From Limnohabitans sp. MORI2 (GTDB taxonomy: Bacteria; Pseudomonadota; Gammaproteobacteria; Burkholderiales; Burkholderiaceae_C), in assembly GCF_027925025.1 (NCBI RefSeq), contig NZ_AP027058.1, positions 682,001-746,000 of the forward strand: a stretch of 64,000 nt of DNA, in the 5' to 3' direction. The notes below the pieces were generated by a model. That model saw only the letters and a list, made by a program, of their open reading frames with translations. It was not told where the DNA came from and searched no databases. Below, piece by piece: positions 49,478-58,529 of the stretch. A program made the translations under genes and the position numbers. Position 1 is the first letter of the stretch, and each line of letters begins with the position of its first letter.

Positions 49478-51880
49478 ATGCATTTTTCACCCGATACCTC
49501 GCCCTTGCTCCAAGGCCTCAACAACGAGCAAGCTGCCGCAGTCACGCTGCCGCAGGCACATGCGCTCATCTTGGCGGGCGCGGGTTCGGGCAAGACGCGG
49601 GTGCTGACCACGCGCATTGCGTGGCTCATGCAAACGGGGCAGGTGTCGCCGGGGGGCATCTTGGCGGTTACGTTTACCAACAAGGCTGCCAAAGAAATGC
49701 TCACGCGTTTGTCGGCCATGTTGCCGGTGAATGTGCGTGGCATGTGGGTGGGCACGTTTCACGGGCTGTGCAACCGTTTTTTGCGCGCCCACTGGAAGCT
49801 GGCCAATTTGCCACAGACCTTTCAAATTTTGGACACGCAAGACCAGCTCAGCGCCATCAAGCGTTTGAGCAAACAGTTCAACGTGGATGACGAGCGTTTT
49901 CCCCCCAAAGAAACCATGCGCTTCATAGCCGGTTGCAAAGAAGACGGCTTGCGCCCCAAAGATGTGGTGGCCCGCGACCCCGATGATCGCAAACGTGTGG
50001 AACTGTACGAGCTGTACGAAGCCCAATGCCAACGCGAAGGCGTGGTGGACTTTGGTGAGCTCATGCTTCGCTCCTACGAGCTGCTGCGCGACAACGAAGC
50101 CGTGCGCGAGCACTACCGTCGCCGCTTTCAGCACATCTTGGTGGACGAGTTTCAAGACACCAACAAGCTGCAATACGCTTGGCTCAAGCAACTCGCTGGG
50201 CCAGTGGGCCAAGGCGGCGGAGCCATCTTGGCCGTGGGTGACGATGACCAAAGCATTTACGCCTTCCGTGGCGCACGCGTGGGCAATATGGCTGACTTTG
50301 TGCGCGAGTACCAAGTGACGCACCAAATCAAACTGGAGCAAAACTACCGCAGCTACAGCAATATTTTGGACAGTGCCAACCACCTCATCAGTCACAACAA
50401 AGGCCGCTTGGGTAAAAACCTGCACACCACGCAGGGCGCAGGTGAGCCCGTGCGTGTGTATGAATCGCCCAGCGACTTTGCCGAAGCGCAATGGATGGTG
50501 GAAGAGATGAAGCAACTCTTGCGCGATGGTCAAAACGGCGATGGCAGCAACGGCGTGCAACACCGCGCCGAAATCGCGGTGCTCTACCGCAGCAACGCGC
50601 AAAGCCGCGTGATTGAAACTGCGCTCTTTAATGCCGCCATGCCTTACCGCGTGTATGGTGGTTTGCGCTTCTTTGAACGCGCTGAAATCAAACACGCCTT
50701 GGCCTATTTGCGCTTGCTAGAAAACCCACGCGACGACACCAGCTTTTTGCGTGTGGTCAACTTCCCGCCGCGCGGCATTGGCGCTCGCAGCATTGAGCAG
50801 CTGCAAGACGCCGCCCGCGCCATGGGTTGTGCCATGAGCGATGCCGTCACTGCGGTGGCGGGCAAAGCAGGTGCCAACCTCAGTGCCTTTGTCGCCAAGA
50901 TTGATGTGTTGCGCGAGCAAACGCAAGGCCAAAACCTGCGCCAAATCATTGAGCTGTTGCTCGACCACTCAGGCCTCATCACGCATTACCAAGGCGAACG
51001 CGAAGGCCAAGACCGCATTGAGAACTTGCAGGAATTGGTCAACGCCGCTGAAAGCTTTGTCACGCAAGAAGGTTTTGGCCGCGATGCCGTGGCCTTGCCC
51101 ATTGATGAGCATGGGGCCTCTGCCTTGAGTGACAACGCTGCCTCCAACAATGCCGTAAACCAAGCGACAGCGCAAACCATGATCAACGCCGACACGGGTG
51201 AAACCTTGTCGCCTTTGGCGGCCTTTTTGACGCACGCTGCTTTGGAAGCTGGCGACAACCAAGCCCAAGCAGGTCAAGACGCGATTCAGCTGATGACGGT
51301 GCATGCCTCAAAGGGCTTGGAGTTTGATTGCGTGTTCATCACGGGCATGGAAGAGGGCTTGTTCCCTCACGAGAACTCGATGAACGACTTTGACGGTCTT
51401 GAAGAAGAACGCCGCCTGATGTACGTGGCCATTACGCGTGCGCGCAAGCGTTTGTACCTCAGCCATTCGCAAACCCGCATGTTGCATGGCCAAACGCGCT
51501 ACAACTTGAAGAGCCGTTTCTTTGAAGAGTTGCCCGAGCACACGCTCAAGTGGATCACGCCTGCGCGTTCAGCGTTTGCAGATGCGATGCCCACCCGACG
51601 CGATGCCTGGCAGAACAACAACGGCTGGCAAAACAACGCATGGGGTGGCGGTGCAGCCACAGCCGTGGCGCCTAAGCCTGTGCCTCAGCGCGCAGCCCCT
51701 GTGACCAGTGGCCCGAATGCGTGGGTGCGCAGCGGTGTGCAAGTGTTCCACGCCAAGTTTGGCGAGGGAGCGGTGATCAGCATTGAAGGTGTGGGCGACG
51801 ATGCCCGTGCGCAAGTGAATTTCCCACGTCACGGCACCAAGTGGTTGGCGCTGAGTGTGGCTAAGCTCACACAGGTGTGA
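49478..51880 (+). CDS. uvrD: ATP-dependent DNA helicase UvrD/PcrA
   Basis: An 800-residue SF1A 3'-5' helicase for nucleotide-excision and mismatch repair. Motifs: LNNEQAAAVTLP (Q), LAGAGSGKTRVLTTRIAWL (I), VDEFQDTNKLQYAWL (II), AVGDDDQSIYAFRGA (III), LEQNYRSYSNIL (IV), LMTVHASKGLEFDCVFI (V) and YVAITRARKRLYLSHS (VI). The insert around 510-590 (NAAESFVTQEGFGRDAVALP) is longer than in E. coli. A C-terminal Tudor-like domain (FHAKFGEGAVISIEGVGDDA) is present, used for RNA polymerase contact in PcrA. Confidence 0.96.
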   Translation: MHFSPDTSPLLQGLNNEQAAAVTLPQAHALILAGAGSGKTRVLTTRIAWLMQTGQVSPGGILAVTFTNKAAKEMLTRLSAMLPVNVRGMWVGTFHGLCNRFLRAHWKLANLPQTFQILDTQDQLSAIKRLSKQFNVDDERFPPKETMRFIAGCKEDGLRPKDVVARDPDDRKRVELYELYEAQCQREGVVDFGELMLRSYELLRDNEAVREHYRRRFQHILVDEFQDTNKLQYAWLKQLAGPVGQGGGAILAVGDDDQSIYAFRGARVGNMADFVREYQVTHQIKLEQNYRSYSNILDSANHLISHNKGRLGKNLHTTQGAGEPVRVYESPSDFAEAQWMVEEMKQLLRDGQNGDGSNGVQHRAEIAVLYRSNAQSRVIETALFNAAMPYRVYGGLRFFERAEIKHALAYLRLLENPRDDTSFLRVVNFPPRGIGARSIEQLQDAARAMGCAMSDAVTAVAGKAGANLSAFVAKIDVLREQTQGQNLRQIIELLLDHSGLITHYQGEREGQDRIENLQELVNAAESFVTQEGFGRDAVALPIDEHGASALSDNAASNNAVNQATAQTMINADTGETLSPLAAFLTHAALEAGDNQAQAGQDAIQLMTVHASKGLEFDCVFITGMEEGLFPHENSMNDFDGLEEERRLMYVAITRARKRLYLSHSQTRMLHGQTRYNLKSRFFEELPEHTLKWITPARSAFADAMPTRRDAWQNNNGWQNNAWGGGAATAVAPKPVPQRAAPVTSGPNAWVRSGVQVFHAKFGEGAVISIEGVGDDARAQVNFPRHGTKWLALSVAKLTQV

Positions 51881-52657
51881 TCAAGCGTACAGCGTGTCTG
51901 ACGTGAAGCAGTCTTTGAAGCTGTAATACGTCGAGCAAAAAAACATCGACGCCAACATCAGCATGGCGGGCAGCATGGCCATCGCGGCAAATTCACCATC
52001 GCCCAAAGCGCTGCCAATGAGCGTGATTGCAAACATGGTGGCCACGAAGATCAATGCCCACATCAGGCCAAACACCAAAAACGCACGCCAATTGCTCAGG
52101 CACGCCACGGTGCTGAAAAACAAGCTTTTGGCCACAGGCACGCCATGCCAGTGGGTGAGTGCGGGCGCATGCCAAAATACCAGCGACAAGGGCAAGTACA
52201 GCATCATCGACAACCACATCGCGTTTTGAAACTCGGGCTTCATCAAGGTGTCCATCTCTAAGGACCCACCGCCCAGATACAAATTGGCAAAGTCACCCCC
52301 ATCCACCAAGGTGGACAGACCCATCACGCCCACAAAACACAGTGCGTAAATAAGACCCAACACCAGCATGTTGCGCTTGCCATCTGCGCCCGTTCTAAAA
52401 CCTGCGGCCAAGATGAAAGGCATGGGGAACTTGCCCAACTCCACCTCGCGAGTAGCGGCCATCAGGCCCAATGTGATCGCTGGCAACAACATGAGCGCCA
52501 AAAACTCGCCCAGCATTGGCACGAGTGAGAGGATGGACATGCTCGCCATGAACATGAAGAACAAGCCGGTGAGGGCGAGCGGTTGCTTCCAAAAAGCACG
52601 AATGCCTTGGCGCACCCAGAGCGAGCCAGTTTTTGCGGGGACGACGTTGAGTTTCAT
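51881..52657 (-). CDS. BPSS1780-family membrane protein
   Basis: A 258-residue protein with about six hydrophobic helices. It begins MKLNVVPAKTGSLWVRQGIR, the usual BPSS1780 start, followed by AFWKQPLALTGLFFMFMASM. VFWHAPALTHWHGVPVAKSL in the middle and CSTYYSFKDCF near the end are family marks. The family is mostly betaproteobacterial and without a known role. It follows thrB by 3 bases on the minus strand and abuts uvrD tail to tail. Confidence 0.88.
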   Translation of the reverse strand: MKLNVVPAKTGSLWVRQGIRAFWKQPLALTGLFFMFMASMSILSLVPMLGEFLALMLLPAITLGLMAATREVELGKFPMPFILAAGFRTGADGKRNMLVLGLIYALCFVGVMGLSTLVDGGDFANLYLGGGSLEMDTLMKPEFQNAMWLSMMLYLPLSLVFWHAPALTHWHGVPVAKSLFFSTVACLSNWRAFLVFGLMWALIFVATMFAITLIGSALGDGEFAAMAMLPAMLMLASMFFCSTYYSFKDCFTSDTLYA

Positions 52658-52660
52658 GGC

Positions 52661-53623
52661 TCAGAGTGTCACAGGATTGGCAATGCGTTGCTGCAACACA
52701 CGCTCAAAGTGTGTAGGGTCGTGGGGTTGCAACATGCTGGCTTCGCGTGGCAGGTAGAAGTCCCACAGGCGAGACGTCCAAAAACGCAAGGCGCCTGCAC
52801 GCAACATAGGGTTGAGCAGCTGGCGCTCAGCCGCGGTGAACGGGCGTACCGCTTGGTACGCATCGATAAAGGCCTTTGCCTTGACTGCATCGTGCGTGCC
52901 ATCAGCATGGGTAATGCACCAGTCGTTCAAACACACAGCCACATCAAACAACCAAGTGTCGACGCCTGCAAAGTAAAAGTCGAAGAAGCCTGTGAGTTCG
53001 GGTAATTCGGCTGTGCCATCAAACATCACGTTGTCGCGGAACAAATCGGCATGCACAGGGCCACGGGGCAGGGCGGTGTACGCCGATGACGCAGCAATGT
53101 GGTTTTGGTAGGCCAGCTCGGTTTGAATGAGCGCTGCTTGTGATTCGTTCAGATGTGGCAACACCACAGGCACGGTCTCGTTCCACCAAGGCAGGCCGCG
53201 CAAGTTGGGTTGTTGACGGTTGTAGTCGCGGCCAGCCAAGTGCATACGGGCCAGCATGTCACCCACCGCAGCGCAATGCGCATGTGTGGGGGCGAGTTCG
53301 CTTTTGCCACGCAAGCGGTTGACCACCGCCGCAGGCTTGCCTTCGACCGTGAGCAAGATGTCGCCATCTTGGTTAGACATCGGGTCGGGCACAGGAATAC
53401 CGCCTTGTGCCAAGTGTTTCATCAGGTACAGATAAAACGGCAGTTGCTCGTGGGTGAGGCGCTCAAACAGCGTGAGCACGTATTGGCCTTCGCTGCTGGT
53501 GAGGAAGTAATTGGTGTTCTCAATGCCACCTTGGATGCCTTTGAGTTCGACCAACTCGCCAAGCTTGAGTTGGGTCAGCAGTTCTTGTGCGGAGGACTCT
53601 GAAACTTCGGTGAAAACTGCCAT
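52661..53623 (-). CDS. thrB: Homoserine kinase (type II, APH-like fold)
   Basis: About 320 residues from ATG 53623 (MAVFTEVSESSAQELL); an open frame extends to 53653. This is the HSK2 homoserine kinase of betaproteobacteria and pseudomonads, in the aminoglycoside-phosphotransferase fold rather than the GHMP fold. It phosphorylates homoserine for threonine synthesis. GGIENTNYFLTSSEGQYVLT is the ATP-site region. The catalytic loop is PVHADLFRDNVMF, with metal ligands in LTGFFDFYFAGVD. LPREASMLQPHDPTHFERVL closes it. Confidence 0.95.
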   Translation of the reverse strand: MAVFTEVSESSAQELLTQLKLGELVELKGIQGGIENTNYFLTSSEGQYVLTLFERLTHEQLPFYLYLMKHLAQGGIPVPDPMSNQDGDILLTVEGKPAAVVNRLRGKSELAPTHAHCAAVGDMLARMHLAGRDYNRQQPNLRGLPWWNETVPVVLPHLNESQAALIQTELAYQNHIAASSAYTALPRGPVHADLFRDNVMFDGTAELPELTGFFDFYFAGVDTWLFDVAVCLNDWCITHADGTHDAVKAKAFIDAYQAVRPFTAAERQLLNPMLRAGALRFWTSRLWDFYLPREASMLQPHDPTHFERVLQQRIANPVTL

Positions 53624-53668
53624 GACTGCCAAGGTATTAAAAGTTGTCAGCATTGTAGTTGGCTTGTT

Positions 53669-53758
53669 TTGCTGGGCTCGCTTGTGGGTTGAGGGATGAG
53701 CGGGTTCCTCATGCTGGGGTACCAGAAATCGTCACCCGCTCATCCCTCAACCCACAAG
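53669..53758 (+). repeat. Hairpin unit 1 of the thrB-polA intergenic element
   Basis: The unit has four parts. A 14-base box TTGCTGGGCTCGCT (53669-53682) is followed by a 25-base left arm (53681-53705), then a 22-base loop box (53709-53730, TCATGCTGG then a variable base then GTACCAGAAATC). A 25-base right arm (53734-53758) is the exact reverse complement of the left arm. The arms start CTTGTGGGTT and end AACCCACAAG. No open frame here looks coding. Confidence 0.85.
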
Positions 53759-53819
53759 ACTACGGCCCGCATTTGGGCGACTTCACCGTAGGCGTGCCAA
53801 AACCTATGCCGCAGACTGG

Positions 53820-53904
53820 GCGTGACTGGTGGGCGTCGCCATGATTTCTGGTACTCCAGCATGAAGCAGCGACGCCTACCAGTCGCGCTCAGCGAGCCCA
53901 GCAA
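53820..53904 (-). repeat. Hairpin unit 2 of the thrB-polA intergenic element (inverted)
   Basis: On the minus strand it repeats the design of unit 1. The same 14-base box is at 53891-53904. A 20-base arm follows (53869-53888), then the same 22-base loop box with one change (53843-53864), and a complementary arm (53820-53839, two mismatches). The arm sequence (GCGACTGGTAGGCGTCGC core) is unrelated to unit 1. The 61 bases between units contain a short CTACGG/CCGTAG pair. Confidence 0.85.
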
Positions 53905-53933
53905 CAAAAACACACAAGGCACAATCACAACCT

Positions 53934-56726
53934 ATGAGTGAATCCAAAACCTTGCTGCTGGTCGACGGCTCCAGCTACCTCTATCGCGCCTTTCATGCCA
54001 TGCCCGATTTGCGAGCCGTTCCTGGCGACCCAACGAGCGCAGCCACAGGTGCTATTCGCGGCATGATCAACATGATGCAAGCCTTGCGCAAAGAGGTGCC
54101 CACCGATTACGCCGCTTGCGTGTTTGACGCCAAAGGCCCGACCTTTCGCGACGAGATGTACCCCGAGTACAAAGCCAACCGCTCACCTATGCCCGATGAT
54201 TTGCGCTCGCAAATCGAACCCATTCACCAAATGGTGCGCTTGCTCGGCTGGACCGTGCTCGATGTGCCTGGTGTAGAGGCCGACGACGTGATTGCCACCT
54301 TGGCCGTCACCGCAGCCAAGCAAGGCGTGAACGTGGTGGTGTCGAGTGGCGACAAAGACTTGAGCCAACTGGTGAACGAGCACATCACCATCATGGACAC
54401 CATGAATGGCAAGAAGCGCGACGTGGCTGGCGTGACCGCCGAGTTTGGCGTGCCTCCGCATTTGATGATCGACTACCAAACCTTGGTGGGCGACACCGTG
54501 GACAACGTGCCCGGCGTGGCCAAGGTAGGCCCCAAGACCGCGGCCAAGTGGCTGGCCGAATATGGCTCGCTCGACAACCTCATTCAACACGCTGACCAAA
54601 TCAAAGGCGTGGCGGGCGAGAACCTGCGCCAAGCACTGAGTTGGCTACCTATGGGTCGTCAGCTGGTGACCATGAAAACCGATTGCGACTTGTCGGCCTA
54701 CGTGGCGGGCTTGCCCGCGCTCGACGCGCTGCATTTAGCCGAGCCCAACAAGCATGAGCTGAAAAACTTTTACGAGACCTATGGCTTCAAAGGCTTGGCA
54801 CGCGCTATCAGCGAGGGCACAGATGCAGGTGTCGGTGGTGCAGCCCCCGCTGCTGCGAAAGCCAAGTTTGAACCCACGCCCGGTTTGTTTGACGAGCTCG
54901 AGCCCATCGTGTCTGCTGTGACCGATAAGGCTTACGACTGCGTGCTCACGTGGGAAGCCTTTGACGCTTGGCACGCCAAGCTGCAAGCCGCTGAGCTGGT
55001 GGCGTTTGACACCGAAACCTCGTCGCTCAGCGAAATGTTGGCCGAGGTGGTGGGCCTGAGCTTTTCGGTCAAGCCGGGCGAGGCTTGCTACATCCCGCTC
55101 GCGCACAGCTATGGCGATGCGCCCGAGCAACTGCCGCGCGACGAAGTGCTGGCAAAACTCAAGCCGTGGTTTGAAAACCCCAACGCCAAAAAACTGGGCC
55201 AACACATCAAGTACGACCGCCACGTCATGGCCAACCACGGCATTGAGGTGCAGGGCTATGCGCACGACACCATGCTGCAAAGCTATGTGCTCGAAGTGCA
55301 CAAGCCACACGGCCTGGCCAGCTTGGCCGAGCGCCATGTGGGCCGCAAGGGCTTGAGCTACGAAGACCTATGTGGCAAAGGCGCACACCAAATTCCGTTC
55401 TCGCAAGTCGACGTGGCGCGTGCCACCGAGTACTCGTGCGAAGACTCCGACATGACGCTGGAAGTGCACCAAGCCCTTTGGCCGCGCTTGCAAGCCGACG
55501 AGAAATTGCAATTCATCTATCAGCTAGAGATGGACAGCAGCGAAGCGCTGTACCGCATCGAGCGCAACGGCGTGTTGATTGACGCGCCCACACTCGCCGC
55601 ACAAAGCCATGCGCTGGGCCAGCGCATTTTGCAGCTCGAAAACGAGGCGTACGAGATTGCAGGCCAGCCGTTTAATTTGGCGTCGCCCAAACAGTTGGGC
55701 GAAATCTTCTTTGACAAACTCGGCTTGCCCGTCATCAAAAAAACCGCCACCGGCGCACGCAGCACCGACGAAGAGGTGTTGGAGAAGTTGGCCGAAGACT
55801 ACCCACTGCCCGCCAAAATTTTGGAGCACCGCAGTCTTAGCAAACTCAAAGGCACCTACACCGACAAACTAGCTCTTATGGCCCACCCCCGCACTGGCCG
55901 CGTGCACACGCACTACGCGCAAGCCGTGGCGGTGACAGGCCGCTTGTCCAGCAACGACCCTAACTTGCAGAACATTCCCATTCGCACTGCCGAAGGTCGC
56001 AAAGTGCGCGAAGCCTTTGTAGCCCCCGCAGGCTGCGTGATAGCCAGTGCCGACTACAGCCAGATCGAGCTGCGCATCATGGCGCACATCAGTGGCGACG
56101 AGGCGTTGGTGAAGGCCTTTCACGAAGGGCTTGACGTGCACCGCGCCACCGCTGCTGAAGTGTTTGGCGTGAGCGTGGACGCCGTGAGCACCGAGCAACG
56201 CCGCTACGCCAAGGTCATCAACTTTGGCCTCATCTACGGCATGAGCGCGTTTGGTTTGGCCAAGGCGCTGGGCATCGATAACGGTGCTGCCAAAAACTAC
56301 ATCACCCGCTACTTTGAACGCTTCGCGGGCGTCAAGCGCTACATGGACGACACACGCGAACAAGCCAAAGCCCAAGGCTTTGTGCAAACCGTGTTTGGCC
56401 GCCGCTTGTACTTGCCCGAAATCAACAGCCCCAACGGCCCACGCCGCGCAGGCGCAGAGCGCGCTGCCATCAACGCGCCCATGCAAGGCACGGCAGCCGA
56501 CCTCATCAAGATGAGCATGGTCGCCGTGCAAAAAGCCATTGACGATCAACAACGCCAAACCAAAGTCATCATGCAAGTGCACGATGAACTGGTGTTTGAA
56601 GTGCCCGAGTCAGAAGTGGAATGGGTCCGCACCGAAGTGCCACGCCTGATGGCTGAAGTGGCGCAGCTGAAAGTGCCGTTGTTAGCTGAGGTGGGAGTGG
56701 GGTTGAACTGGGATGAGGCGCATTGA
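53934..56726 (+). CDS. polA: DNA polymerase I
   Basis: A 930-residue Pol I (E. coli 928). The N-terminal 5'-3' exonuclease (LLLVDGSSYLYRAFHAMP, FDAKGPTFRDEMYPEYKANR, VVVSSGDKDLSQLV) spans residues 1-290. The 3'-5' exonuclease has VAFDTETSSL with the metal-binding Asp/Glu intact, so it should proofread, and its Exo III YSCEDSDMT. The polymerase domain has DYSQIELRIMAHISGD (motif A), RRYAKVINFGLIYGMSAFGL (motif B) and MQVHDELVFEVPE (motif C). It acts in Okazaki fragment maturation and repair. Confidence 0.98.
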   Translation: MSESKTLLLVDGSSYLYRAFHAMPDLRAVPGDPTSAATGAIRGMINMMQALRKEVPTDYAACVFDAKGPTFRDEMYPEYKANRSPMPDDLRSQIEPIHQMVRLLGWTVLDVPGVEADDVIATLAVTAAKQGVNVVVSSGDKDLSQLVNEHITIMDTMNGKKRDVAGVTAEFGVPPHLMIDYQTLVGDTVDNVPGVAKVGPKTAAKWLAEYGSLDNLIQHADQIKGVAGENLRQALSWLPMGRQLVTMKTDCDLSAYVAGLPALDALHLAEPNKHELKNFYETYGFKGLARAISEGTDAGVGGAAPAAAKAKFEPTPGLFDELEPIVSAVTDKAYDCVLTWEAFDAWHAKLQAAELVAFDTETSSLSEMLAEVVGLSFSVKPGEACYIPLAHSYGDAPEQLPRDEVLAKLKPWFENPNAKKLGQHIKYDRHVMANHGIEVQGYAHDTMLQSYVLEVHKPHGLASLAERHVGRKGLSYEDLCGKGAHQIPFSQVDVARATEYSCEDSDMTLEVHQALWPRLQADEKLQFIYQLEMDSSEALYRIERNGVLIDAPTLAAQSHALGQRILQLENEAYEIAGQPFNLASPKQLGEIFFDKLGLPVIKKTATGARSTDEEVLEKLAEDYPLPAKILEHRSLSKLKGTYTDKLALMAHPRTGRVHTHYAQAVAVTGRLSSNDPNLQNIPIRTAEGRKVREAFVAPAGCVIASADYSQIELRIMAHISGDEALVKAFHEGLDVHRATAAEVFGVSVDAVSTEQRRYAKVINFGLIYGMSAFGLAKALGIDNGAAKNYITRYFERFAGVKRYMDDTREQAKAQGFVQTVFGRRLYLPEINSPNGPRRAGAERAAINAPMQGTAADLIKMSMVAVQKAIDDQQRQTKVIMQVHDELVFEVPESEVEWVRTEVPRLMAEVAQLKVPLLAEVGVGLNWDEAH

Positions 56727-56804
56727 GGGCTAACTTGCCGTTGCCACATTCAAGAAATGCACACAAGTGCATGCAATAAAGTAATTATTGAGTTCGAATC
56801 CAAG

Positions 56805-57506
56805 ATGAAAACTCGTTTTGTCATTGATGTGGAAGGTTCACCTCGAACTGTGTTCGCCGTGCATGAAACACGGGGCGGTGATTTGAATATTCACATCACC
56901 AGCGGAGGCAGAGCCTATTCTTCCGCTACGTTTGGCGAACTGGTGGCGGTTTGTGATGAGTCTAAATTTGAAGCTTGCGAAAAGCACATTTCTGTTCACG
57001 CAAGCAAGAAAAGCCCAGCGGTCAATGTCATCAAACGGACCCAAACGTTCCCTGATAGGACCGAGGACATATGCCAATACACGACCGGCATTAAGCTAGA
57101 CAATTTGTTCGTCCCTGTCCTGTTTCGTATTTGTGGTGATCTATCTCGCGACAGATACCAATTGCCTGTCAAGTGCGTTGACCGGCTAGAGTCATTGGGA
57201 GTTTATGAACCAAACCAAGGGCAGCTGAGGTTCATGGCTGTTTGCAGTCGGCGCGGAACTTCGTTTCCAAAGGACGAAGAACACCCATCAAACGTGAAAC
57301 AAGTGGACTTTGAGAACTTCACGCTTACGGTGATTTGGTCTTATCTGAACAAGCCATCCCATCCGCAGGCAATTGATTTCTTTCTTTCAACTAAGGCGGA
57401 GACTGGGCCTATTCGCGGTTTGCACTGGTTTGAGATTTACAACCTCTATACCGATCTGTACATGACCCACGCTCAAGAGTATTTCAAGATGTACGGCGAT
57501 GATTAA
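56805..57506 (+). CDS. Orphan protein of unknown function
   Basis: About 233 residues from ATG 56805 (MKTRFVIDVEGSPRTVFAVH); ATG 56757 is in frame but its extra 16 residues look non-conserved. No signal peptide or membrane segment. A predicted N-terminal beta-rich part (NIHITSGGRAYSSATFGELV) is followed by a mixed domain with YTTGIKLDNLFVPVLFRICG and a C-terminal helix (WFEIYNLYTDLYMTHAQEYF). Codon use is more AT-rich than in polA, suggesting a later arrival. No family recognised and no partner on the same strand. It begins the accessory patch after polA. Confidence 0.65.
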   Translation: MKTRFVIDVEGSPRTVFAVHETRGGDLNIHITSGGRAYSSATFGELVAVCDESKFEACEKHISVHASKKSPAVNVIKRTQTFPDRTEDICQYTTGIKLDNLFVPVLFRICGDLSRDRYQLPVKCVDRLESLGVYEPNQGQLRFMAVCSRRGTSFPKDEEHPSNVKQVDFENFTLTVIWSYLNKPSHPQAIDFFLSTKAETGPIRGLHWFEIYNLYTDLYMTHAQEYFKMYGDD

Positions 57507-57538
57507 GCGCATCAAAATCTATCAATAAGTGTGTTTAT

Positions 57539-57973
57539 TCACAATGCTTCTGTCATCTTCGTTGTATTTTCGATTAGGTCGGTTACCAAGATACAAAGCT
57601 GCGTAATCTGCGACTCCTCAATTTCCAAATAGCCTTCGTACTCAGCCAGGTTGCGTTTTTGGTGGGCCATGTCCAACGCACGCCATTGGTGTGCGGGCCA
57701 GTTCAGTGTGTGGGTGAGGCACTGAAACACGGTGTAGCGGTTTTCGCTTCGGTAGCCATGCCAGCGCAGTGCGGCCAGGGCGGCGGCGTGTGCCGCGTTG
57801 TACGCGCTGGTAAATCGCCCTTCGGCTGATAGGCTGCCAATTTGCGCATCTGCCAATCGGATGCGTGCCATGTCGAGCATGCGTCGCACCTCGGCATCGT
57901 TGCGTGGTTCAACTTTCAGTTGACCTATTCGAGCCAAGTTCTCCAGAGCGTTGGGTGGCATGCACATCTCCAA
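57539..57973 (-). CDS. HEPN-domain protein, partner of the nucleotidyltransferase
   Basis: A 144-residue all-alpha protein of HEPN type, paired with an MNT nucleotidyltransferase. The helical repeat SAYNAAHAAALAALRWHGYR and the C-terminal HQKRNLAEYEGYLEI (R107, N108, Y112) match the small HEPN proteins carried with MNT genes. The standard RNase motif Rx4-6H is not evident; an RNxxxY pattern stands in that area. The start region overlaps the upstream gene by 65 bases (or 53 with ATG 57961), so translation is coupled. Toxin activity is inference from such pairs. Confidence 0.78.
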   Translation of the reverse strand: MEMCMPPNALENLARIGQLKVEPRNDAEVRRMLDMARIRLADAQIGSLSAEGRFTSAYNAAHAAALAALRWHGYRSENRYTVFQCLTHTLNWPAHQWRALDMAHQKRNLAEYEGYLEIEESQITQLCILVTDLIENTTKMTEAL

Positions 57974-58529
57974 TCAAGGGCAGCGTGGGCTGCGCCAAGA
58001 TGCGGTTCACAAAAGAGTCCGGCTCTGCCAAACGCTTGGCATATTCGCCAGGCGTGTAGCAGGTCGGATTGATTTTGCGACCCAACGAGGTTTCGATTGG
58101 AAGTAGCAGTTGAAGAATGTCACTCAGCACCAAGCCTTTACCCACCAGCAACACGTCCACATCGCTGTTGGCGGTGTCGTTACCTTTCGCCACGGAACCA
58201 AAAATAAAGGCAGTGTCAATGCGCTGCGCCATGGGCTGCAAGGCTTGTAGCAGCAGTGGGGCTGCGCCCATGGTTTTGCGGATGATTGCAACCAGCTCTG
58301 CAAACACAGGGCTTTGTGCATTGGCTTGAAAACACCGCAAGTTTCCCACGCGTGTCGAGAGCACGAGCTGCGAGTCGACCAAGCGGTTGAGCTCGCGTTG
58401 CAGTGTGGCGCTGCCCAAGGATGTGAGGCGGCGCAGCTCACTCAGGTGATAGCTGCGCTCGGGCTGGCCAAATAGCCAGGGCAACAGCCTAACTTGGCTA
58501 TTACTGAACAGACACGATGCGATAGACAT
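57909..58529 (-). CDS. Winged-helix / minimal nucleotidyltransferase fusion (MNT antitoxin type)
   Basis: A 206-residue two-domain protein. Residues 8-75 form an ArsR-like winged helix (YHLSELRRLTSLGSATLQRE, then LVLSTRVGNLRCFQAN). Residues 100-190 are a minimal nucleotidyltransferase with FIFGSVAKGNDTANSDVDVL (G111, S112, D123, D125). A third acidic residue is not clear: the usual position reads GRKINPTCYTP. In some MNT-HEPN pairs the MNT AMPylates the HEPN toxin. The HTH and the palindrome 17 bases upstream suggest it represses its own operon. Overlaps the HEPN gene. Confidence 0.85.
   Translation of the reverse strand: MSIASCLFSNSQVRLLPWLFGQPERSYHLSELRRLTSLGSATLQRELNRLVDSQLVLSTRVGNLRCFQANAQSPVFAELVAIIRKTMGAAPLLLQALQPMAQRIDTAFIFGSVAKGNDTANSDVDVLLVGKGLVLSDILQLLLPIETSLGRKINPTCYTPGEYAKRLAEPDSFVNRILAQPTLPLIGDVHATQRSGELGSNRSTES

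Follow-up and report, generated by a model that had tools for sequence, protein, structure and literature searches.

Hairpin units with a near-constant tip on freely changing, compensating stems in Limnohabitans and its relatives: most likely single-strand elements of the REPIN kind

The inverted pair between a kinase gene and polA

In the window – the 64,000-nt stretch of the Limnohabitans sp. MORI2 genome analysed here – two hairpin units stand in inverted orientation, foot to foot, at positions 53664–53909, between two divergent genes identified by ORF and Pfam: an APH-family kinase gene on the left (52661–53653, minus strand), which we take to be thrB, and polA on the right (53934–56726, plus strand). 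Unit 1 has its tip on the minus strand. It comprises an outer foot box (53664–53682), a 3' arm (53681–53705) and a 5' arm (53734–53758) that pair at 25 of 25 positions, and, between the arms, the constant tip (53709–53730), which reads GATTTCTGGTACCCCAGCATGA on the minus strand; the covariance model matches at 53684–53755. Beyond a spacer (53759–53815), unit 2 follows on the plus strand with a 5' arm (53816–53839), the constant tip (53843–53864, reading GATTTCTGGTACTCCAGCATGA), a 3' arm (53869–53892) that pairs with the 5' arm at 21 of 24 positions, and an outer foot box (53891–53909); here the model match spans 53819–53889.

This anatomy agrees with the first-pass annotation, made from the sequence alone. 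The 14-base foot box is identical (53669–53682 is the exact reverse complement of 53891–53904), the 22-base loop box differs by one change (53709–53730 matches the reverse complement of 53843–53864 in 21 of 22 positions), the arms of unit 1 pair throughout, and the arms of the two units are unrelated in sequence; the 18 of 20 pairs given earlier for unit 2 reflect a shorter frame. The two loops are, as had been pointed out, complementary to each other, but merely because the units stand in inverted orientation.

A chance origin of the pair was ruled out by three results. Folded as DNA, the stretch 53660–53910 lies 12 standard deviations below 200 dinucleotide shuffles (z −12.1), none of which folded equally well; the tip pattern is found twice in the window against an expectation of 0.00 in window shuffles; and the 20-mer of the tip has 14 exact copies in the 2.65-Mb genome, seven per strand, while the reversed tip, used as a control, gave a single match even at up to 3 mismatches. 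A search in 'distant' mode gave no match to the window's pair in plasmids or phages, and carriage by either was dropped as a candidate.

Copies of the tip, their stems and the folded strand

All 14 exact tips of the window's genome stand on stems of 19–27 bp, no two of which are alike, and the covariance model finds at least 19 units in this genome, five of them with altered apical loops. Across GTDB species genomes the tip occurs in at least 120 stretches; among the 80 matches listed, 78 belong to Limnohabitans, Rhodoferax, Polaromonas, other Comamonadaceae, Burkholderiales or beta-proteobacteria. The 20-mer also stands without a stem in a Prevotellaceae MAG among the matches listed (L109) and in one viral contig (L174), both taken as chance matches. 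A complete tip hairpin with a genuine stem was seen on a contig labelled as a Chitinophaga pinensis MAG (L112:198–217), which is probably misbinned. Occurrence within the bacterial family is scattered, with the tip at up to 1 mismatch in 23 of 299 evenly sampled genomes; the order-wide model search, whose counts are lower bounds given its strict filters and the 19 candidates scored per genome, matched in at least 3 of 250 genomes, the window's own included. Stems have a median length of 26 bp (10th percentile 22 bp) and mostly measure 22–32 bp, the few below 22 bp (down to 2 bp) including contig ends, one bulged stem and the stemless L109 and L174. Copies take the form of inverted pairs with two different stems, of single units or, in three genomes, of single hairpins enclosed by the terminal repeats that belong to the resident Y1 (HuH) transposase gene.

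The first-pass annotation had suspected a repeat family in which the tip stays constant and the stems compensate, and the own-genome tips and the GTDB stretches bear this out. Copies in other genomes with a constant tip and differing self-complementary arms, which were looked for with a covariance model among other means, are present, and 22 of 22 stem pairs covary. The supposed constancy of the boxes holds in part: the tip recurs, but the foot boxes vary across the family, and within the loop less is constant than the box first drawn would imply. Because most copies were found via the tip, its constancy is partly selected; the unselected check is provided by the thrB–polA orthologs, which were retrieved by gene. 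In the open-access literature searched, none of six strings taken from the tip and its complement had a match, and a look for papers on repeats of Limnohabitans and related ones led no further.

Among 35 divergent copies (less than 72% alike), two-sided changes occur at 22 of 22 stem pairs, with a covariation score of 1.005 as compared to 0.203 after shuffling. In these copies 96.6% of stem cells pair, against 56.2% when shuffled and at most 48.6% when slid, a figure that is flattered by the choice of copies: all 35 come from a set of 264 in which at least 17 of 22 pairs were Watson-Crick to begin with. The covariation itself is no product of this filter. Taken unfiltered, 133 distinct stems in the main register, whose 5' arms have a median identity of 0.41, pair at 20.1 of 22 positions, as compared to 8.9 when arms are swapped between units.

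The build of a unit is that of a long stem carrying an internal loop, GATTT / YATGA, and above it a short apical hairpin, the tip being near constant. The exact tip is missing from 29 of the 150 model hits that were aligned; the 25 ungapped ones among the 29 retain CGATTT / YATGAG without exception, and it is the apical helix that varies, in part with compensation. Exceptions to CGATTT / YATGAG lie outside that set, in L342 (GATTC) and L271 (GACTT). Read antiparallel, the internal loop would offer tandem G.A pairs followed by T.T, T-A and T.Y.

Stem mismatches are strongly asymmetric between the strands. On the tip strand of 168 units we counted 246 G.T against 24 A.C, both given equal penalties; since a G.T mismatch reads as A.C on the opposite strand, it is the tip strand whose fold is kept. 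The bias recurs whichever way the flanking genes run: among 191 classified units, G.T and A.C stand at 73:6 in those sense to both neighbours, 96:2 in those antisense to both, 69:10 between convergent and 35:1 between divergent genes, and the orientation of units relative to neighbouring genes is free. The tip strand thus keeps its fold regardless of the direction in which the neighbours are transcribed, and this fold is not that of the neighbours' mRNA. The earlier suggestion of a structured RNA, as far as it concerns an RNA of the flanking genes, is not supported, given this free orientation and the G.T excess that is equally present in antisense units.

An RNA family in which each unit has its own promoter, the tip binds a protein or ligand and G.T stands for G.U pairs would look alike in its strong covariation and its tolerance of G.T. 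Internal loops with constant letters are, moreover, typical of RNA motifs. We nevertheless regard this explanation as improbable: orientation to the genes is free and the asymmetry is as strong in antisense units, the window's pair would require transcripts from both strands, and Rfam gave no match near gathering score in positions 50000–58000, where three miRNA models, far below gathering, were the only ones to appear. Ordinary intrinsic terminators or chance palindromes, for which it can be said that 63 of the 191 classified units lie between convergent genes, we hold to be hardly credible in view of the excess of exact tips over the reversed control, the asymmetry between G.T and A.C on the tip strand, and the lack of a T run on either side of the window's stems. 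The tip-strand bias fits recognition of folded single-stranded DNA, as by Y1 (HuH) enzymes (PMC8266576); the accessible part of that source describes TnpA-REP enzymes as reading single-strand hairpins in a manner that depends on the loop and on irregularities.

Units also keep a fixed relation to one another. Of 98 pairs of neighbouring units less than 400 nt apart, 96 are inverted with their feet outward, and in none of the 96 are the two stems at least 70% alike, while 4% would be expected between pairs overall. The strongest case comes from a Polaromonas MAG (G064), with like stems in 0 of 27 pairs as compared to 29% under random pairing (0 of 600 shuffles gave as few), and amounts to one element: the 28 pairs of this genome, at different sites with different flanks and with tips 155–157 nt apart, look like copies of one two-ended element, and the 27 are hence not independent choices. 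Crude typing of the stems gave 11 P+Q, 2 Q+R and 1 Q+Q pairs and 14 with at least one untyped stem. In several copies of this genome (L284–L313) the likeness continues past the element into the flank, on one side or on both, as if they were part of a larger repeat.

Age of the loci, Y1 genes and modes of stem change

The thrB–polA gap was surveyed in 30 loci taken of 59 matching genomes, 28 of them readable. Eight of the 28 gaps in the genus are filled, and 20, of 62–128 nt, are without a unit. One gap (L209) has no tip at four mismatches, yet holds both units with shortened apical loops; in another (L210) there is a single unit. Seven orthologs have both units; their stems pair at 19–22 of 22 positions, while the weakly conserved spacer varies from 49 to 137 nt. 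The totals of a table of 32 ortholog comparisons are left aside, four comparisons of L015 in it being shifted by one base. Furthermore, at least 7 of the 10 exact-tip loci of the window's genome have a counterpart in G080 or G184 that likewise carries the tip and is orthologous in both flanks, a minimum since the G080 locus list is incomplete; these loci are old, and movement in this genome is therefore infrequent. Units also occupy the gap between an aldehyde dehydrogenase gene and a DUF779 gene in 10 of 10 tip-selected loci, with several different stems and two loci of the same sequence (L149, L250, L243–L245, L078, L134, L141, L166 and L093).

Such conserved positions speak for old, vertically kept sites for a chromosomal protein (of replication, repair or the nucleoid) that reads the folded tip strand, some of which Y1 repeats have merely captured. 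The orthology of most own-genome loci, the pairing retained between thrB and polA despite spacer change, the units in the aldehyde dehydrogenase–DUF779 gap and a Y1 gene with no tip hairpin alongside all favour this explanation. We consider it doubtful all the same, given the scattered occurrence in the bacterial family, the 20 thrB–polA gaps without units, the copies of fixed anatomy that have expanded in one Polaromonas MAG, and the hairpins that lie inside Y1 repeats in three genomes, as described below.

The window's genome has one Y1 gene (PF01797); the Y1 protein scores 47.4 bits against PF01797 and 80.1 bits, just at the cut-off of 80, against NCBIfam NF047646 (REP-associated tyrosine transposase). 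Repeats of the sequence GGGGTCAG stand beside the Y1 genes of this genome (G000), of G080, G184, G064 and G260, and of three MAGs. In these three (behind L057, L087 and L106) the Y1 repeats are TTAATTGGGGTCAGATCAACATTAATTT, the gene being split over contigs in the third. Of the 45 distinct tip hairpins of the three MAGs, 31 are enclosed by the Y1 terminal repeats in elements of ~140 bp, one has a repeat on one side and 13 have none; enclosure means repeats on both sides at up to 2 mismatches, and one further hairpin at a contig edge was left out. The first-pass suggestion of a non-autonomous mobile element is likely correct in view of these 31 hairpins, and we infer that the Y1 enzyme would be what moves tip hairpins. 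In the window's genome, Y1 repeats do not flank tip hairpins, the window's own pair included. It speaks against such a link that 30 loci of the Y1 gene held no tip hairpin (at up to 3 mismatches) within ~1.5 kb of it, and that a further 4 loci held none either.

The mere presence of Y1 genes, which are nearly universal in the bacterial family, was dropped as evidence of a link. Homologues of the query protein at E 1e-40 occur in 23 of 23 tip-bearing genomes and also in 239 of 276 tip-less ones; Pfam Y1_Tnp was found in 21 of 23 tip-bearing as compared to 12 of 22 hand-picked tip-less genomes.

Two side observations concern the Y1 genes themselves. In L318, L319, L321 and L190 a second, shifted repeat with GGGGACAG adjoins GGGGTCAG at one end of the gene. 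In two MAGs the Y1 gene stands beside the start of one and the same gene, presumably that of the glutamate synthase large subunit, as if it had settled there (L318:1250–1520, L319:2150–2500). The enclosed elements (L351–L394, L057, L087 and L106) have, for their part, outer flanks beyond GGGGTCAG that are complementary and copy-specific: over 32 matches, a few of them overlapping, flank nucleotides 5–12 pair at 4.81 of 8 positions as compared to 3.32 (sd 0.23) with exchanged flanks, and nucleotides 13–20 at 3.09 as compared to 2.24 (sd 0.22). This complementarity could come from palindromic targets, nested copies or rewriting.

Stems appear to change in two modes. The 31 enclosed stems, with 27 different arms of median identity 0.625, are almost perfect (735 of 744 pairs are Watson-Crick); with only four G.T and two A.C among them, no strand asymmetry can be read there. 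Between close copies, counted on minimum-spanning-tree edges of up to 4 changed positions and not on a phylogeny, the enclosed stems of the three MAGs show 24 two-arm against 6 one-arm changes, as compared to 35 against 135 at other loci (Fisher p 5.5e-10 against the enclosed) and 25 against 22 in the Polaromonas MAG. Of 23 two-arm changes between Watson-Crick pairs in enclosed stems, 15 are transversions; a transversion from one Watson-Crick pair to another has no route via a single G.T step. One pair of copies differs at a single stem position, T-A in one and A-T in the other, and a third copy has T.T there.

We read this as suggesting that, in dispersing copies, one arm may be copied from the other. 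The two-arm excess could also come from transfer of perfect hairpins only, or from arm merging in short-read assembly. The first-pass annotation had attributed the compensating stems either to selection for structure or to templated copying, and each finds support in a different setting: the former in the preponderance of G.T over A.C in resident copies, the latter in the two-arm changes of dispersing copies in three genomes. A measurable signature separates two causes of compensating stems: resident copies change in one arm, often to G.T, and dispersing copies in both arms at once, in many cases by transversion. Taken to its extreme, copying of the folded strand with arm templating arm would make the unit a self-rewriting palindrome, a perfect, drifting and copy-specific stem between constant recognition boxes, with pairing upheld by copying and not by selection and with the internal loop as the address for a Y1 class that has no known hairpin substrate; we put this forward tentatively, as possible.

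Proposed mechanism and known systems

We conclude that the family is real and that its members most likely work as REPIN-like single-strand hairpins, with the tip as their address. On balance the window's inverted pair is probably a member of such small non-autonomous DNA elements, its tip being read on the folded single strand, probably by Y1. A protein, most likely the resident Y1 transposase of the TIRYT type, would act during replication, reading the tip of the folded single strand. Under this proposal the length and pairing of the stem would therefore matter and its sequence would not, so that the stem could drift. In dispersing copies one arm would probably be re-copied from the other, by fold-back or quasi-palindrome templated repair as candidate mechanisms, and stems would stay perfect while diverging; resident copies would afterwards change by single bases and tolerate G.T. 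That the two inverted units bear different stems would serve to let them fold apart. No insertion with exact ends was seen, and the evidence for movement consists of presence and absence between species and of dispersed copies.

The small dispersed repeats of Elhai and the double-hairpin elements of Allomyces may be comparable. Volvox organelle palindromes, as presented in the accessible part of their description (PMC2670323), were considered as a comparison that led nowhere. The beta-proteobacterial repeat element BRE, likewise a dispersed intergenic repeat found in Polaromonas and Rhodoferax too, is set apart by its description only, as a sequence-conserved unit of ~90 bp in direct tandem (PMC3110155). 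Caulobacter CIR elements share two hairpin arms joined by a linker and a motif exposed at the terminal loop, but in the part of the source consulted the motif is GANTC, stands on one arm only and is described from Caulobacter and Brucella (PMC2229807).

Closer are the GTAG and CGTC REPs, extragenic hairpins with inverted dimers, a preference for two different stems per dimer and G.T pairs (PMC3733652). Inverted dimers are found here in the 96 of 98 neighbouring pairs, and most REP families prefer heterodimers, without obvious explanation, protection from hairpin-cleaving enzymes having been suggested (PMC3733652). Their stems, however, measure 5–13 bp and carry a 5' tag (PMC3733652), unlike the 22–32 bp stems without a GYAG tag described here. 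Membership among the GTAG REPs was rejected on the count of GYAG tags within 12 nt 5' of the stem, 14 of 141 stem clusters as compared to 22 of 141 in the control; CGTC REPs are defined by a CGTC tag at one end and a stem of 8–9 bp, shorter than our median of 26 bp.

REPINs are REP doublets that form hairpins, associated with RAYTs, in which inverted boxes surround a variable hairpin spacer (PMC3116915). As far as the accessible part of that source goes, the likeness extends to inverted constant boxes, a spacer that retains its length and its ability to form a hairpin, and common compensatory changes; the statement of the first-pass annotation that REP/RAYT elements keep their stem is hence only partly true. 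The inverted doublets, their dispersal and the presence in the genome of a Y1 transposase bearing the same ends are further points in common with REPINs as there described. The REPIN plan of two constant inverted end boxes around a compensating spacer, the boxes being common to the Y1 gene, is found in the 31 enclosed hairpins of the three genomes and not in the window's pair. Compared with what that part of the source reports, the present elements differ in having a constant central tip and stems of 22–32 bp, and in that most copies outside the three genomes lack shared end boxes. We read the constant tip above a freely changing stem as new relative to REPIN-like elements.

In a TIRYT, terminal inverted repeats that contain GGGGWSAS flank a Y1 gene (PMC3733652; PMC6006769), and the Y1 gene described here combines a transposase of the REP-associated type with GGGGWSAS terminal repeats. 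It likewise lies between GGGGTCAG repeats, and miniature elements carry the same repeats. In two Y1 proteins nothing beyond the first Pfam match appeared up to E 0.1, subclass 2.1 being marked by a C-terminal helix-turn-helix domain. Around subclass 2.1 Y1 genes, automatic and manual searches gave no REP-like sequences nearby (PMC6006769). For TIRYTs, near whose genes no such sequences are reported (PMC6006769), no hairpin substrate has been described, and the tip hairpin now becomes a candidate one.
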